A stretch of DNA of 64,000 nucleotides. Source: a candidate division WOR-3 bacterium (GTDB lineage: Bacteria > Hydrothermota > Hydrothermia > Hydrothermales > JAJRUZ01). Below, in pieces: positions 50,479 through 60,811 of this stretch; position 1 is the stretch's first letter; each line of letters begins with the position of its first letter. The stretch spans positions 1 through 64,000 of the forward strand of contig JBDRZP010000013.1 in assembly GCA_039804025.1 (NCBI GenBank). The letters are read 5' to 3'. The notes beneath the pieces are model-generated. The model did not search any database, was not told the DNA's origin, and saw only the letters and a program-made list of their open reading frames with translations. Made by a program: the position numbers and the translations under genes.

Positions 50479-52264
50479 AAATTATTTCTGCCAGTTTTCT
50501 TCCAATTCCTTTTACTTTTGCAATTTCATCAATACTTGCACCTTTTAATCTTTCTATTGAACCAAAAAACCTTAAAATTTCCATTTTCTTTTTTTCACCA
50601 ATTCCAGGTATTCCATCAAGTTCTGAAATTTTAACTTTTTTCTCCATCTTCTTTCTATGGAAAGCTACAGCAAATCTGTGTGCCTCACTTCTAATATCCC
50701 TTAAAAGTCTTATTGCATAAGTTTTTTTGGGTATCATCACCTCTCTGCCATCAGGAAAATAAAGCTGGTCAAAGGTTTTAGCAAAAGCACAAACTTTAAC
50801 ATCTTTTATATCAAGTTCTTTGAGAGCATTTAAAGCTGCACTTAACTGTGGTTTTCCACCATCAATTATAAATAAATCTGGAAATTTTTCATTTTCTTCT
50901 TTCAATCTTTTAAATCTTCTCTTTACAACCTCATAAACCATCTGTGGATCAGATCTTGCTTCCTCTGTTTTAATTTTATATTTTCTATAAGATTTTTTAT
51001 CCCTTTTACCATTTTTAAAAACAACAACCGCACCAACCCTTTCATCTCCAAAGGAATGGGAAATATCAAGGCACTCAATATGAAAAGGATAATCTTTAAG
51101 ATTTAAATTTTCTTTTAGTTCAACAATTGCCTTAGATGGTAAAATTTTCCCCTTCTTTTCAATATAGTATTCCTCAAGTTTTATCCTCGCATTTTCCTCA
51201 GCCATTTTTAAAAGTTTTTCCTCGTCTTCACCTTCAGGTTCTCTAAATTTAATTGAAACATTTCTCTTAAGTTTTAAAGCCTCTTCTATCTCCTTATAAT
51301 TTTCATCAACTTTAATTAAAATAATTTCCTCTGAACCAAGAATACCTGAAAGGTAATACTGGGAAGCAAAAGAAAATAAAACATCCTTTTCCTCATAATA
51401 GAAAGGAACATCAAGAATAAAGTTTTCCATATCAAGAAGTTTTCCTTTTCTAACTCTTAAAAGGGAAATGGATGCAAAGGGATGATGAATCTGACATGCT
51501 AAAACATCAAGGGATTTTTCTTCCTCTAAAACAGCAATCTGACTTCTTGAAAGTTCTCTTATTGAATATAAAGCATCCCTTAATCTTGCCGCTTTTTCAA
51601 ATTCCATTTTTTCCTTACATTTCTCTATTTCCTTTAAAAGATAATCCTCCACACTTTCTGTTCTTCCTGTAAAAAATAAAACTGCTTTATTTACTACTTC
51701 TCTATACTCTTTAGGGTCTACAAACCCCTCTACACAGGGAGCAGGACACCTTTTAAGTTCGTATTCAAGACAGGGATTTATTTTCTTTTTTGAGGGTAAT
51801 TTATATTTACAAGTTCTTATTGGAAAAATTCTTAAAGTCATTCTCAATGCTTTTCTAAGAGATTTAGCAGAATGAAATGGTCCTATAAGTAAAGAGCCAT
51901 CATCCCTTAAATCTCTTGTCATGAAAATTCTTGGATACATTTCTCTTAAGGTTATTTTAAGATACGGATATTTTTTGTCATCCCTTAATCTTATATTGAA
52001 TCTCGGCTTTTTACTTTTAATTAAATTATTTTCAAGAAGAAGTGCCTCAGGTTCAGATGAAGTAACAATAAACTCAAAATTTTTAACCTTTTCTATCATT
52101 AAGCTCAATCTTGGATTCTCATACTCTGCATTTAGGTGAGTTCTTATCCTTTCTTTTAAATTTCTTGCCTTACCTATGTAAAGAAGGTTACCTTTTTTAT
52201 CATAAAAAAGATAAACTCCTGGTTTTTCAGGAACAAGTTCAAGATTTTCCTTATTAAATTCCAT
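50459..52264 (-). CDS. uvrC: Excinuclease ABC subunit C
   Basis: The 601-residue UvrC performs the dual incision in nucleotide excision repair. The GIY-YIG domain is N-terminal (KPGVYLFYDKKGNLLYIGKA). The Cys-rich CLEYELKRCPAPCV segment, the UVR motif near 205-240, the RNase H-like nuclease (LFIIDGGKPQLSAALNALKE) and the C-terminal tandem HhH (GIPGIGEKKKMEILRFFGS) follow in the usual order. It shares one base with the anti-sigma stop (TAATG), so translation is coupled. Confidence 0.95.
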   Translation of the reverse strand: MEFNKENLELVPEKPGVYLFYDKKGNLLYIGKARNLKERIRTHLNAEYENPRLSLMIEKVKNFEFIVTSSEPEALLLENNLIKSKKPRFNIRLRDDKKYPYLKITLREMYPRIFMTRDLRDDGSLLIGPFHSAKSLRKALRMTLRIFPIRTCKYKLPSKKKINPCLEYELKRCPAPCVEGFVDPKEYREVVNKAVLFFTGRTESVEDYLLKEIEKCKEKMEFEKAARLRDALYSIRELSRSQIAVLEEEKSLDVLACQIHHPFASISLLRVRKGKLLDMENFILDVPFYYEEKDVLFSFASQYYLSGILGSEEIILIKVDENYKEIEEALKLKRNVSIKFREPEGEDEEKLLKMAEENARIKLEEYYIEKKGKILPSKAIVELKENLNLKDYPFHIECLDISHSFGDERVGAVVVFKNGKRDKKSYRKYKIKTEEARSDPQMVYEVVKRRFKRLKEENEKFPDLFIIDGGKPQLSAALNALKELDIKDVKVCAFAKTFDQLYFPDGREVMIPKKTYAIRLLRDIRSEAHRFAVAFHRKKMEKKVKISELDGIPGIGEKKKMEILRFFGSIERLKGASIDEIAKVKGIGRKLAEIIYERLHS

Positions 52265-52836
52265 TATTTAAAAGAGAACTTAAAGGATGTTAAATAGAAT
52301 TTATTTTTTTTATAAATTTTATTATCCTTAAAAACTGTCAAATAATGAGTACCCGGATTTAACTCTAAATCTTCTGCAAGATAATACAAAAGTTTATCAG
52401 TTTTCTTTAAGGAATCAGATATATCAACACTATCAATAAAAACTTTTAACCCCTTTATATTATTTACTTTAAGAACAAAAAGAACCTCTTCAGGTGTTAA
52501 AACCTCTTCCTCTGAAGGTGATATAATCATAATTTCCTTTTCAATTTTAACAATAAATTTAAAAAGAATAACGAAGATTAATGATAATGTAACAAGAGCA
52601 GGAACAAAAGTTTTAATTATTTTTTCCTTTCTCCTTCCCCTTTTTAAAACTTCTTTTCTTATTCTCAATTTCACATCAAGGGGGACTTCTATTTCAAAAG
52701 ATTTAAAAAATTCCTTTACCTTTTCATAATTTTCTTTACACTCCTTACATTCCTTTATGTGATTTTCAAGTTCTGTTAAACTTTCACCTTTATTTTCAAT
52801 TATTTCAAATATTTCATTTATTTCAAAGTGTTTCAT
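52264..52836 (-). CDS. Transmembrane anti-sigma factor with zinc-finger N terminus
   Basis: This 190-residue protein has an anti-sigma zinc motif (HIKECKECKENY, H-x3-C-x2-C) near residues 25-38. One TM helix follows at about 80-102 (FVPALVTLSLIFVILFKFIV), then a periplasmic domain. It would hold the sigma factor encoded upstream at the membrane until proteolysis. ATGA overlaps the sigma gene, as usual for cognate pairs. Confidence 0.85.
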   Translation of the reverse strand: MKHFEINEIFEIIENKGESLTELENHIKECKECKENYEKVKEFFKSFEIEVPLDVKLRIRKEVLKRGRRKEKIIKTFVPALVTLSLIFVILFKFIVKIEKEIMIISPSEEEVLTPEEVLFVLKVNNIKGLKVFIDSVDISDSLKKTDKLLYYLAEDLELNPGTHYLTVFKDNKIYKKNKFYLTSFKFSFK

Positions 52837-53315
52837 TTTAATAGTTCAATTAAAAGTTCTCTTCCCCTTTTAAGTCTTGTTTTTACAGTTCCTTCAGGAA
52901 TACCAAGAATTTCTGCAATTTCCTTAACCTTAAAGCTTGAAATGTAATAAAGTTCGAGGGTTTCTCTTATTTCTTCTGGTAACATTTTCATTTTTTCAAA
53001 AATTTTTTCTTTCTTTTCGTCCCTCTCATAAGAATAATGTTTTTCATCAACAAAATCAAGGGGTATAAATTTTATAAATTTTCTCTTTCTATAAAAGGAA
53101 ATAACAGAATTCATAGCAATTTTAAAAATCCAGGTATAATAGGAACTTCTTCCTTCAAATTTATCAAGCCCCTTATAAACTTTGAAAAATATTTCCTGAC
53201 ATAGATCTTGAGCATCCTCTCTATTTGATACCTTGTAATAAACATATTTCCATATTCTGTCAAAATATTTATCATAAAGGATATTGAAGAGATTTTCTTT
53301 TTCATTTTTATCCAT
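52833..53315 (-). CDS. ECF-type RNA polymerase sigma factor
   Basis: This 160-residue protein has sigma region 2 (YFDRIWKYVYYKVSNREDAQ, DLCQEIFFKVYKGLDKFEG) and region 4 (LPEEIRETLELYYISSFKVK, EIAEILGIPEGTVKTRLKRG). It resembles RpoE-like ECF factors. It is flanked by a CpxP-like gene upstream and its anti-sigma downstream, so an envelope-stress role is likely. Confidence 0.92.
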   Translation of the reverse strand: MDKNEKENLFNILYDKYFDRIWKYVYYKVSNREDAQDLCQEIFFKVYKGLDKFEGRSSYYTWIFKIAMNSVISFYRKRKFIKFIPLDFVDEKHYSYERDEKKEKIFEKMKMLPEEIRETLELYYISSFKVKEIAEILGIPEGTVKTRLKRGRELLIELLK

Positions 53316-53321
53316 TTTAAA

Positions 53322-53783
53322 TTAATTTTTCCACAACATCTTTCTTTCTCTATCTCTTTCTCTTCTCATTTCTCTTAATTTTTCTCTTATTTCATTAAAT
53401 CTTTTATTGCCAAGTTTATCGTAAACTTTCTTAAAAGCTTCAATCTGTTTGATTCTAAGATTCTTGTTAAGTTCTGCCAGTTCTTCTATCAATTTTTCAG
53501 CTTTATTAAAATCAATTTTTTCAGATTGCATAACTTCTTCCAGTTCAATCTCTTTGATTCTTATTTCTGATTTTATTTTTTCAGTTTCCTTTTCTAAATT
53601 AAAATAGAGGTTTTTAAAAAGTTCCGCTTCTTCCTTTGAAAGCCCTATATTTTTCTGAACATAACTATCAAGTGCCAAAACTCTTATAATTATTTCAGGA
53701 TTTCTTTTTAAAAACATCCTTTTTAAGAATTCACCCTGTTCTGGTTGAGATATCAAGATTATTAAAGGTATTAAAGATTTCAT
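53322..53783 (-). CDS. CpxP/Spy/ZraP-like periplasmic helical protein
   Basis: This 153-residue protein has a signal peptide (SLIPLIILISQ) and then three or four charged amphipathic helices. LSKEEAELFKNLYFNLEKET and ELAELNKNLRIKQIEAFKKV are followed by FNEIREKLREMRRERDRERK. This pattern is seen in Spy/CpxP/ZraP-type chaperones and sensors, often controlled by ECF factors. It stands directly in front of the sigma gene. GGAG precedes ATG and a T-arm-like motif lies 24 nt upstream. Confidence 0.65.
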   Translation of the reverse strand: MKSLIPLIILISQPEQGEFLKRMFLKRNPEIIIRVLALDSYVQKNIGLSKEEAELFKNLYFNLEKETEKIKSEIRIKEIELEEVMQSEKIDFNKAEKLIEELAELNKNLRIKQIEAFKKVYDKLGNKRFNEIREKLREMRRERDRERKMLWKN

Positions 53784-57528: not shown

Positions 57529-58215
57529 TTAAATCAAATGTATAAAATCATGAATTAAAAAGTAAAATCTACCAATCAAAAGAGCTATTCTTGCCATAAC
57601 AGTATATCCAAAAGCTGCACCAAAACCTATCATTATGAATATAATCCCAATTTTTGAAAAAATCTTTAAAAAACCCTTATGTTCCTTGGAAAAGAAAAAG
57701 TAAGATAAAACTGTGAATGTTCCTATAAATATTATTAAAGAGTTAAAAAAGTATAAGGTATTAGAAAATTGGGGCAAAAAAGTGTCTTTTATCTGATCGA
57801 AAATTCTTGCCTTAAAGGTAGGATAAAGAGATAAACCTGCTCCAACTCCCATTAAAAAGGCAATAGGATACCTTATAAGCCATGAATGCTTGGGAAAAAG
57901 CAGAGAAAAAAATAAAAGTCCAAAGGTAAGGGGAATAAGATACATAACAAATGCAAAAAAGCTTGAAATTAAATTAATATCAGGAAATAACTGAGGCCAG
58001 ATAATTTTATAATAAAAAATAGAAAATTTTTCTGAAAGTGGTTTTATTATAAATCTTAAAATAGCATTATGCCAGTAAATTGAAGCATAATAACCTGCTG
58101 AAACCCCTACAAATAAGTGTTCAGCAAATCTGTATACAGGATTATCCCTATATAAAAAGGAAAATATAGCAAGGGTTAAAAAAGCACTTATCCAAATCCA
58201 GGGATCAAGACTCAT
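57529..58215 (-). CDS. Polytopic membrane protein, cassette gene 4
   Basis: This 228-residue protein of about six or seven TM helices is not recognised. The N terminus is SLDPWIWISAFLTLAIFSFL; other stretches are AEHLFVGVSAGYYASIYWHN and LMGVGAGLSLYPTFKARIFD. The tail ends with IGFGAAFGYTVMARIALLIG. The start overlaps cassette gene 3 by four bases (ATGA). The glycine-rich helices suggest tight packing with partner subunits. Function unknown. Confidence 0.7.
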   Translation of the reverse strand: MSLDPWIWISAFLTLAIFSFLYRDNPVYRFAEHLFVGVSAGYYASIYWHNAILRFIIKPLSEKFSIFYYKIIWPQLFPDINLISSFFAFVMYLIPLTFGLLFFSLLFPKHSWLIRYPIAFLMGVGAGLSLYPTFKARIFDQIKDTFLPQFSNTLYFFNSLIIFIGTFTVLSYFFFSKEHKGFLKIFSKIGIIFIMIGFGAAFGYTVMARIALLIGRFYFLIHDFIHLI

Positions 58216-59033
58216 TTTTTAGTCCTCCTTTGCATGAAAAAGGCAATGTTGCCAAGTATAACAAGAAAGACCATTACAAAATTTGCAAGGGAAATTGAGT
58301 TCATCCCCTTTGTTGCAAGATCATAAGCCCTCAATAATTTCTCATACTCAGCAGCACCTCTCATTCCCCCTATTAAACCTATAAACTGTTTACTTCTGTA
58401 ATAAGGATAAAGTTGAGCTGCCATAACAGCTGTTACTCCAGCTGCTACATTGGCACCATATCTTCCATTTGCGTAAACCATCCAGCTTTCTGGTATTGCT
58501 GCTCCTGAAATGCTTATAGCAAGTTTAATGTCACTATAATTCTTAACTCCATTAAAAGCAGGAATTTTATCAAAGGGATATCCAAAATAGTCAGATTTAA
58601 AAACATTCTTTATATCTTCACCAATTCCTAAAATTGTTGCAGCAATTGAAGGGAAATATCCAAGGAAAACAATATCCTCCCTTTCCTTTAATCCATACTC
58701 CTTGATTATTTTATTGTAAACATCAAGAGCAAACCCTGTTCCAGCAGGATATAGAGTCATTATATATATCCTCAGCTTTTTCTTTGCAAGATGCTTTGCA
58801 AGAACAAGAGATATCGGGTAACATTCTGGTAATACATCAGGTGAATAGTCAAAAGATAATATTACAGGTGTTCCTTCAGGCAGAGCTTCTATAAAATCAT
58901 AAACATCCTGAACTGGTTTTAAAATATTTAAAGGTAAAGTAAATTTAAAAAGTAAAGGAAAGAAAACAGCAATTCCAATTAAAAGAAATATTAAAGCTCT
59001 CGGTATTTTAAGCAATCTTTCCCATATATTCAT
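58212..59033 (-). CDS. TM-soluble-TM membrane protein, cassette gene 3
   Basis: This 273-residue protein is not recognised. It has one TM helix near the N terminus (ALIFLLIGIAVFFPLLFKF), an alpha/beta soluble domain of about 205 residues (GTPVILSFDYSPDVLPECYP, LRIYIMTLYPAGTGFALDVY, LAISISGAAIPESWMVYANG) and one C-terminal TM helix (ANFVMVFLVILGNIAFF). The start is the ATG at 59033 in an ATGA overlap; a TTG three codons earlier is the alternative. The layout matches cassette gene 1, suggesting paralogous or paired subunits. Function unknown. Confidence 0.7.
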   Translation of the reverse strand: MNIWERLLKIPRALIFLLIGIAVFFPLLFKFTLPLNILKPVQDVYDFIEALPEGTPVILSFDYSPDVLPECYPISLVLAKHLAKKKLRIYIMTLYPAGTGFALDVYNKIIKEYGLKEREDIVFLGYFPSIAATILGIGEDIKNVFKSDYFGYPFDKIPAFNGVKNYSDIKLAISISGAAIPESWMVYANGRYGANVAAGVTAVMAAQLYPYYRSKQFIGLIGGMRGAAEYEKLLRAYDLATKGMNSISLANFVMVFLVILGNIAFFMQRRTKK

Positions 59034-59641
59034 TCTAACCAACTCCTTTCAATTCCAAGCATTATTTTTAAAGATGTTGCAAGAATCCCAAGAGCTATAC
59101 CAAGTGTTATGCCCCTTTGAGCAGCAAGATTTGGAACATCAAGAATCCACTGGGCAAAATAAGGGAGATTTTTTGATAAAACATCACCAAAGGAAGTAAG
59201 TCCTATCATTATAACAAATGCTGATAATAAAAGGAGAGCACTTTCAACACTTCTTGCTCTAAAAGCTCTATAGGCTGCAGAAGCCATATAAAAGGAAAGA
59301 AGGGAAAAGGTTGTTGCATTTAAAGGAACCATAACAAATTCATAAATTTTATCAAAAATTGAGCCCTTTCCTATACCAAAGAAAATACCAAGAATCATCA
59401 TACCGTAAAGAGAAATGAGAGTAACAAGAGAGTAAAAAACATTTTTCCCTTTCCTCACATTTGTAAAATGTCTTCTTGTAAGTGATATAACAGCCATAAT
59501 TATAGCCATTCCCTGAACTCCCTGAAACCATTCAAGGAGCAAGGTATAAACTGATTTAGAAAGAGGACCTGTAATAAAATATTGAAGGAATCCCAAAAGT
59601 CCTATAAAAAAAACAATAAAAAGTGGAAATTGTTTTTTCAT
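59030..59641 (-). CDS. Polytopic membrane protein, cassette gene 2
   Basis: This 203-residue protein with five or six TM helices is not recognised. A distinctive cytosolic-loop segment is FYMASAAYRAFRARSVESAL, followed by LLLLSAFVIMIGLTSFGDVL. Both ends overlap the neighbouring cassette genes by four bases. Function unknown; it is probably an integral scaffold for the two TM-soluble-TM proteins. Confidence 0.7.
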   Translation of the reverse strand: MKKQFPLFIVFFIGLLGFLQYFITGPLSKSVYTLLLEWFQGVQGMAIIMAVISLTRRHFTNVRKGKNVFYSLVTLISLYGMMILGIFFGIGKGSIFDKIYEFVMVPLNATTFSLLSFYMASAAYRAFRARSVESALLLLSAFVIMIGLTSFGDVLSKNLPYFAQWILDVPNLAAQRGITLGIALGILATSLKIMLGIERSWLE

Positions 59642-60417
59642 TTGGGAAAAATAAAGTTTAAAATATATGATTTACCAATTAAACCGAGAAATCCTCCTAA
59701 AATTAGTAAAAATCCTATTATAAGCTTCATAAAATCCTGGGCTTTTATAGTTGAAACAAGCACAGGTTCTCCTGATAGATAAGCACTTGCAGCGTAAAAC
59801 TCTTCTCCTATTAAAGTATAATCGCAGGATGTAACAAAAAAGGGGAGTTGTGTTATTGCATCTGTTCCCGCAATTTGAATTGCTCCAGTCGAAGCTCCTG
59901 TTTCAGCAAGTAAGAGAGATTCAGCCCAGAACATTCCCATAAAAAAATTTGTTGCGGTCTTTTCTCTTACCATTAAACCACAAACACTGGCAGCATATCC
60001 AAACTGGGAATCAGTAACATAGAATACAGAATCTTCTTTAAAAAGGTCAGGTCTCCCGATAGAAGTATAGGCCTGTTTTATTACCTCCTTTGCAACTGTA
60101 TAAACAACAGGGTTTCTATTTGGGACTATGATATCAGTTTCATACTCCCCTGCTTTTTTTGCTACTCTTGATAAAATGTTTAGAGAAGCAATAGTTGCTA
60201 CATCATCAATTGTAGAAAGTCCTGGAACATAAAGAATACTTCTTCCCATTTCTGTTGCCCTTCCTATTGCTTCATCAACTGCTTCAATTCCTGGTATTTT
60301 CCTTAAAAAAAGTTTTTCACCTTTCCTTGCTTTTGAAATAAAATAGAGAAGTAAAAAGGTATAAATTAATACTGAAATTAGAACAGATAATTTTTGAATA
60401 TCAATTCCAATTTCCAT
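59638..60417 (-). CDS. TM-soluble-TM membrane protein, cassette gene 1 (DUF6754-like)
   Basis: This 259-residue protein has TM helices at about 9-28 and 229-252 and an alpha/beta domain between: MGRSILYVPGLSTIDDVATI, ETDIIVPNRNPVVYTVAKEV, EDSVFYVTDSQFGYAASVCG and GAIQIAGTDAITQLPFFVTS. I link it to the DUF6754 family from memory; this is unverified. No nucleotide or metal motif is evident. It begins one base after the lipoprotein gene ends and overlaps cassette gene 2 by four bases. Confidence 0.7.
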   Translation of the reverse strand: MEIGIDIQKLSVLISVLIYTFLLLYFISKARKGEKLFLRKIPGIEAVDEAIGRATEMGRSILYVPGLSTIDDVATIASLNILSRVAKKAGEYETDIIVPNRNPVVYTVAKEVIKQAYTSIGRPDLFKEDSVFYVTDSQFGYAASVCGLMVREKTATNFFMGMFWAESLLLAETGASTGAIQIAGTDAITQLPFFVTSCDYTLIGEEFYAASAYLSGEPVLVSTIKAQDFMKLIIGFLLILGGFLGLIGKSYILNFIFPK

Positions 60418-60418
60418 T

Positions 60419-60811
60419 TTAATAAATTCTTTTTATTTCAACTTTATCCTTTATTATTTCAAATATTTTACCTTTATAAAATAAATCTATCTTCAATTTC
60501 AAATATTCTTTTGATTTTATTTCTTTTATATCGTAAACAGGGATTTCAAATATGTAATAATTTTTTTCCTTTTTAAAATTCACATTAAATTCAGAATCAT
60601 CGAATAGAATTTTAATATTTTTAATTTCAGGTTCTTTTTCAAAAGTTCCTTTAATTTCTATATTACCCTTTATTTTTCTATGAAACTGAATTGGGACTGG
60701 CATTAAATTTATAAAAATTTGAACATTCAATTCAAAGTCATCAGGAAGTTTAACCTGCTTGGTGCAACTTATAAAGAAAGAAGAAATAAAAAGTATATTC
60801 TTTAGCAGAAT
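60419..60811 (-). CDS. Lipoprotein with non-ATG start, in front of the membrane cassette
   Basis: Translation in frame upstream of the first TTG gives a clear lipoprotein signal: LLKNILFISSFFISC with Cys16, then TKQVKLPDDFELN. No ATG, GTG or TTG precedes it; the first codons after the EF-G-like stop are ATT (60809-60811) and CTG. GAGGAA lies 5 nt before ATT. The mature 115 residues look like a beta-sandwich (IKGNIEIKGTFEKEPEIKNI, YYIFEIPVYDIKEI). It would be 130 residues with the AUU start and sits one base before cassette gene 1. A TTG start at about 60730 would lose the signal. Confidence 0.65.
   Translation of the reverse strand: MLLKNILFISSFFISCTKQVKLPDDFELNVQIFINLMPVPIQFHRKIKGNIEIKGTFEKEPEIKNIKILFDDSEFNVNFKKEKNYYIFEIPVYDIKEIKSKEYLKLKIDLFYKGKIFEIIKDKVEIKRIY

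Follow-up and report, generated by a model that had tools for sequence, protein, structure and literature searches.

A conserved four-gene membrane cassette containing DUF6754 and its association with a MutL-family ATPase, a barrel-sandwich protein and a small protein

The window, a 64,000-nucleotide stretch of DNA from a WOR-3/Stahlbacteria relative, contains a tight chain of genes for membrane proteins lacking a recognisable activity, which raises the question of what these proteins form together and what they might do. An earlier note on this DNA had described five chained genes, encoding a lipoprotein, two proteins with a soluble domain between two transmembrane (TM) helices, and two polytopic proteins. 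All five open reading frames (ORFs) were found on the minus strand, in a run from an EF-G-like GTPase gene to a UbiA-family gene in which the genes lie a few bases apart or overlap by ATGA:

62812-60812, minus strand: EF-G, an EF-G-like GTPase of the NCBIfam PRK12740 subfamily
60419..60808, minus strand: small lipoprotein, with a lipobox-like Cys in homologues and a probable CTG start
59638..60417, minus strand: A, 259 aa, DUF6754, TM-helix-(beta-alpha)6-TM, a short form lacking the N-terminal FN3-like domain
59030..59641, minus strand: B, 203 aa, polytopic with about six TM helices, predicted N-in/C-in from hydropathy and charge profile
58212..59033, minus strand: C, 273 aa, TM-helix-(beta-alpha)6-TM, domain predicted to be extracytoplasmic
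57529..58215, minus strand: D, 228 aa, polytopic, with a near-invariant FGAsFGYTvMAR...GR stretch
57524-56520, minus strand: UbiA-family gene, downstream of D

The A-B, B-C and C-D junctions are all ATGA overlaps, and the lipoprotein stop lies one base ahead of A. The coordinates first proposed hold for A to D, whereas the lipoprotein probably starts at the CTG at 60808 and not at the ATT at 60811, because its ORF lacks an ATG and the sister species (G002) has a TTG aligned with the CTG at 60808-60806. A was found to be a full-length, high-scoring member of DUF6754 (PF20539; 383.5 bits against a gathering cut-off of 27, E 4.8e-115, positions 7-254 of 257), and nothing scored above cut-off for B, C, D or the lipoprotein among the Pfam and NCBIfam models, as expected from the suggestion that only the first gene would have a database family. 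Purifying selection acts on all five genes: compared with two congeners, dN/dS was 0.14-0.38 for the lipoprotein and 0.03-0.08 for A-D (0.028-0.056 for A alone; saturated synonymous sites make the value for C against the more distant congener not computable). Elsewhere in the window (52264-53783), a sigma-factor-like gene is accompanied by a gene for a one-TM protein, a candidate anti-sigma factor, and by a small secreted helical protein upstream, possibly an envelope-stress module.

The four genes A-B-C-D form a unit that extends far beyond this genome. Their order is kept in about 160 cassettes across many phyla and is nearly invariant in the roughly 60 stretches of relatives' DNA and 80 named contigs compared, with about 150 homologues of B in the same operon position and about 160 homologues of C, which upholds the view of the locus as a conserved multi-gene membrane cassette with two polytopic members and no recognisable activity. 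The survey of gene neighbourhoods across phyla that had been proposed as a check did show co-occurrence: within the window's own phylum, 128 of 133 genomes have A, and it is present in 60/60, 40/40 and 36/41 genomes of the phyla of a Zixibacteria, a Poribacteria and a Zipacnadia genome, respectively (the names of these groups being inferred from the named contig leading to each), and it is found in none of 14 well-known control genomes. In three genomes seemingly without A (G034, G055, G204), all or part of C is present, and these absences are therefore probably assembly gaps. A scan of named sequences gave at least 581 confirmed stretches, the best 80 of which come from WOR-3/Stahlbacteria, TA06, Edwardsbacteria, Fermentibacteria, Coatesbacteria, Eisenbacteria, Latescibacterota, Zixibacteria, Poribacteria, CSSED10-310, Mcinerneyibacteriota and others. 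The cassette also occurs in records labelled as Desulfuromonas sp. SDB and Proteobacteria bacterium OTbin.15 (L110, L129), which are probably misassigned bins.

The immediate neighbours of the cassette do not share this conservation. The UbiA gene adjoins it in two of the loci read, and EF-G is a neighbour in three families belonging to a single class, which speaks against the meaning that the earlier note had attached to both. Similarly, the lipoprotein had been counted as part of the cassette; its homologues, with the lipobox-like Cys, were seen in three families only, making it a lineage-restricted accessory outside the conserved core. The idea that it represents a detached FN3 domain of A was ruled out by a locus carrying both the lipoprotein and a long A (L043). 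The succession of an EF-G-like GTPase and a small lipoprotein ahead of A recurs in three families of the class and is a possible secondary association.

Genomes carry one to seven copies of A-type genes, and tandem double or triple arrays of the cassette are frequent; the zixibacterial group mostly has 4-6 copies of A. The window's genome itself encodes a second A-B-C-D cassette on another contig (L003 12549-15976), overlooked at first, in which A is longer and begins with a signal-peptide-like stretch followed by an FN3-like domain. In a tree of 156 cassettes, the two copies fall into separate clades that each span several families of the class, so that both types have been kept since before the class diversified; at least six families retain both. 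The second cassette is an anciently diverged copy. An A-A-B-C-D variant, with two adjacent A genes and single B, C and D genes (L189 8542-10318, L190 6773-8552, L212 8506-10271), suggests A heterodimers. In Mcinerneyibacteriota, one A protein of 1160 residues (L143 567-4049) has an N-terminal extension of about 900 residues of no recognised kind, and a similar extension is found in L128. The gene for an ARPP-1 (PF20208) protein lies upstream of one cassette, separated from it by a few genes (L003 6709-7617), and a relative is encoded between two cassettes in another genome (L074 3385-4299).

One reading of such an operon would be four membrane proteins that act independently and are merely co-expressed, with no stable complex. 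It can draw on the lack of both fusions and structural proof of subunit contact: no genuine B-C or C-D gene fusion hinting at contact was found, and apparent B-C, C-D and D-A fusions, seen as long ORFs in GC-rich MAGs, were dismissed as ORF-extension artefacts, their extra parts lacking the partner domain. A homology of B and D was likewise rejected, the hhalign alignment being out of register and unconvincing. The near-invariant order, the translational overlap, the tandem duplication of whole units and their loss as units are, on the other hand, typical of the subunits of a single complex, and we regard independent action as very improbable.

The fold predictions gave A and C a common design. 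Their AlphaFold models (mean pLDDT 90.5 for A and 95.5 for C) share the same order of elements, a TM helix, a helix, six beta-alpha units and a TM helix, as had been noticed for the layout of the two genes from sequence. No close relative of either was found in the PDB (none of the matches listed has a TM-score over the query above 0.36), and no significant viral fold relative of C. A profile alignment of A with C that included secondary structure had a Z of 3.4, and 0 of 200 shuffles preserving the secondary structure reached its score; an alignment by sequence only was not significant and hhalign was negative. Homology between A and C is suggestive.

The charge bias of the two families, assessed by a positive-inside test over about 150-175 sequences, differs in direction. 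A has a net charge of +4.1 after its first TM helix, before which the long forms have an FN3 domain and a signal peptide, and C has +2.1 before its first and +3.1 after its second TM helix, compared with +1.1 and +0.2 beside the domain. This opposite asymmetry predicts a cytoplasmic soluble domain for A and one outside for C; the extra FN3-like domain of many A proteins is placed outside as well, and B reads as six TM helices with both termini inside from charge and hydropathy. Residues E166, E172, T185, D199, Y200 and E206 are invariant in A, as are E70, P73, W184, Q216, Y230 and E231 in C. In the models, these residues are positioned at or soon after the ends of strands, which would suit a ligand pocket; a nucleotide-binding glycine motif is not apparent in either protein.

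A second set of genes, missed in the earlier note, emerged from clustering the neighbours of A. Encoded upstream of A in several lineages are a MutL-family ATPase (ASKHA-type, PF13941) and a 373-residue barrel-sandwich protein (BSH), with a protein of about 110 residues (sm) and gcvPB further upstream beyond them. In the window's genome, the three partners are found on other contigs:

G000:C11 (59865-61641): MutL and sm
G000:C29:12869-13993: BSH

The counts among 60 relatives are 58 for MutL, 57 for BSH, 56 for sm and 55 for A (higher for A if assembly gaps are counted). The two genomes of one genus, G042 and G053, lack MutL, BSH, sm and A-D alike, which may reflect a single loss event; a further genome (G044) has MutL, BSH and sm, with neither A nor C detected. 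Within the Poribacteria phylum, 38/40 genomes have BSH, and neither BSH nor A had a plasmid match. The partners are usually single-copy, while A-D has one to seven copies. In one compact arrangement, sm-A-B-C-D-MutL-BSH, the genes follow each other without a break and mostly overlap (L211 8818-14966); sm is usually directly upstream of A in the Zipacnadia-led phylum, in 13 loci (e.g. L025, L038, L069, L110, L142, L155 and L162) the gene immediately upstream of A is BSH, preceded or not by MutL, MutL-BSH also adjoins A in L207 and L215, and the two are fused in L123. It is highly probable that the seven-part association of A-B-C-D with MutL, BSH and sm is real. Among the papers searched, nothing on this system was found for DUF6754, for MutL/GlmL or for the uncharacterised families of these phyla, and the link of the three partner genes to A-B-C-D seems to be previously undescribed.

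In the Zipacnadia-led phylum, a membrane protein of about 140 residues, weakly PH-like in L211, is encoded directly upstream of sm (L211 8450-8866, L212 7686-8129, L209 7881-8360) and is a possible eighth component. A second MutL-BSH pair, which is divergent and not encoded beside A-D (G043:C89, G045:C48, G047:C118; L182, L183, L184) may serve another system.

What the seven proteins do together can be approached from the predicted architecture. We infer a physical complex of four subunits in the inner membrane, A-B-C-D, which would supply the membrane half of a system of seven parts, with MutL, the RnfC/NqrA-like BSH and sm as its other half. The polytopic B and D would make up the membrane core, and A and C, as Rossmann-like subunits of the same layout and opposite orientation, A in the cytoplasm and C outside, would provide binding sites for a ligand or partner at either face of a translocation path through B/D. 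From the cytoplasm, a single MutL-BSH-sm module may energise, reset or assemble each complex, with ATP coupling through MutL, and the paralogous cassettes (1-7 per genome) may differ in specificity. Among the solute, envelope and reaction readings, transport is the best fit to a pair of inverted alpha/beta subunits around two polytopic subunits. The location of the partners on other contigs of the window's genome, and not beside A-D, counts against this explanation, and A-D revealed no substrate, ligand or enzymatic motif; as a whole mechanism, a transporter-like complex run by the shared module is our preferred but tentative proposal, held at somewhat less than even confidence.

The predicted outward-facing domain of C and the long forms of A with a signal peptide and an FN3-like domain would also suit an envelope assembly or maturation complex, in which the FN3 and C domains handle clients outside (lipoproteins, glycans or secreted proteins) and MutL/BSH provide ATP-driven cycling. 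The lipoprotein ahead of A in three families and a lipoprotein signal peptidase-like gene directly after D in seven loci point the same way, but these neighbours are confined to one class and were therefore probably inherited once, and A-D match no peptidase, glycosyltransferase or chaperone family. We consider an envelope role of this kind rather unlikely.

A membrane-bound enzyme or carrier complex tied to glycine/serine or lipoyl metabolism, in which the Rossmann-like A and C would bind a cofactor, is brought to mind by the gcvPB gene preceding sm-MutL in many genomes, by lipoate-ligase-like genes after D in 8 loci and by a D-2-hydroxyacid dehydrogenase (SerA-like) gene ahead of A in 8 loci. 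The compact operons of L211 and L209, however, have none of these metabolic genes, A and C show no apparent nucleotide-binding glycine motif, and BSH has no obvious lipoyl/biotin lysine motif and falls below the Biotin_lipoyl and RnfC_N cut-offs. Such a function is improbable.

Returning to the transporter-like proposal, it would extend to an ATP-coupled membrane machine of a new class, near-universal in several bacterial phyla, in which a shared ASKHA-type MutL with a barrel-sandwich adaptor would drive two polytopic subunits and, on opposite membrane faces around them, a related pair of Rossmann-like subunits of inverted topology; we put this forward as a possibility that is more doubtful than not. 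A multi-subunit membrane system that is near-universal in several deep bacterial phyla, often multi-copy and under strong purifying selection points to a probably core process in these lineages, unseen in model organisms, and the MutL/BSH/sm link offers testable handles in the form of a probable ATPase and a compact complete operon.

Compared with known systems, the Pfam entry DUF6754 covers one protein, while B, C, D and the MutL/BSH/sm partnership lie outside it. No match in PADLOC-DB was found for A-D, the lipoprotein, BSH or MutL, and an anti-phage defence system was discarded. The A domain has weak fold matches to cytoplasmic Rossmann gating or carrier domains (KtrA/TrkA RCK and the MoCo carrier protein), from which A and C differ in being anchored by two TM helices, as well as by the low TM-scores given above. 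The partner ATPase belongs to the same Pfam family as GlmL, the glutamate-mutase accessory protein (MutL/GlmL, PF13941), but the L025 protein scored well below the NCBIfam cut-offs for GlmL (NF040745; 221.5 vs 475 bits) and Or-4 (219 vs 600), and the neighbourhoods read showed no recognisable mutase gene. For a biotin-dependent sodium-pump decarboxylase, BSH reached 20.8 bits against the 22.1 of Biotin_lipoyl, with no lysine motif seen. BSH is also weakly similar to the barrel-sandwich subunit RnfC/NqrA of Rnf/Nqr and likewise goes with a multi-subunit membrane complex, although it scores below the RnfC_N cut-off (21.2 vs 25.6 bits) and has no iron-sulfur (4Fe-4S) domain match. Group II ECF transporters, finally, differ in having one S component where the A-D system has four membrane subunits, and A-D, MutL and BSH lack any ABC match, with the ASKHA-type MutL instead; by analogy only, the resemblance lies in a single ATPase module being shared by several membrane modules that are interchangeable.
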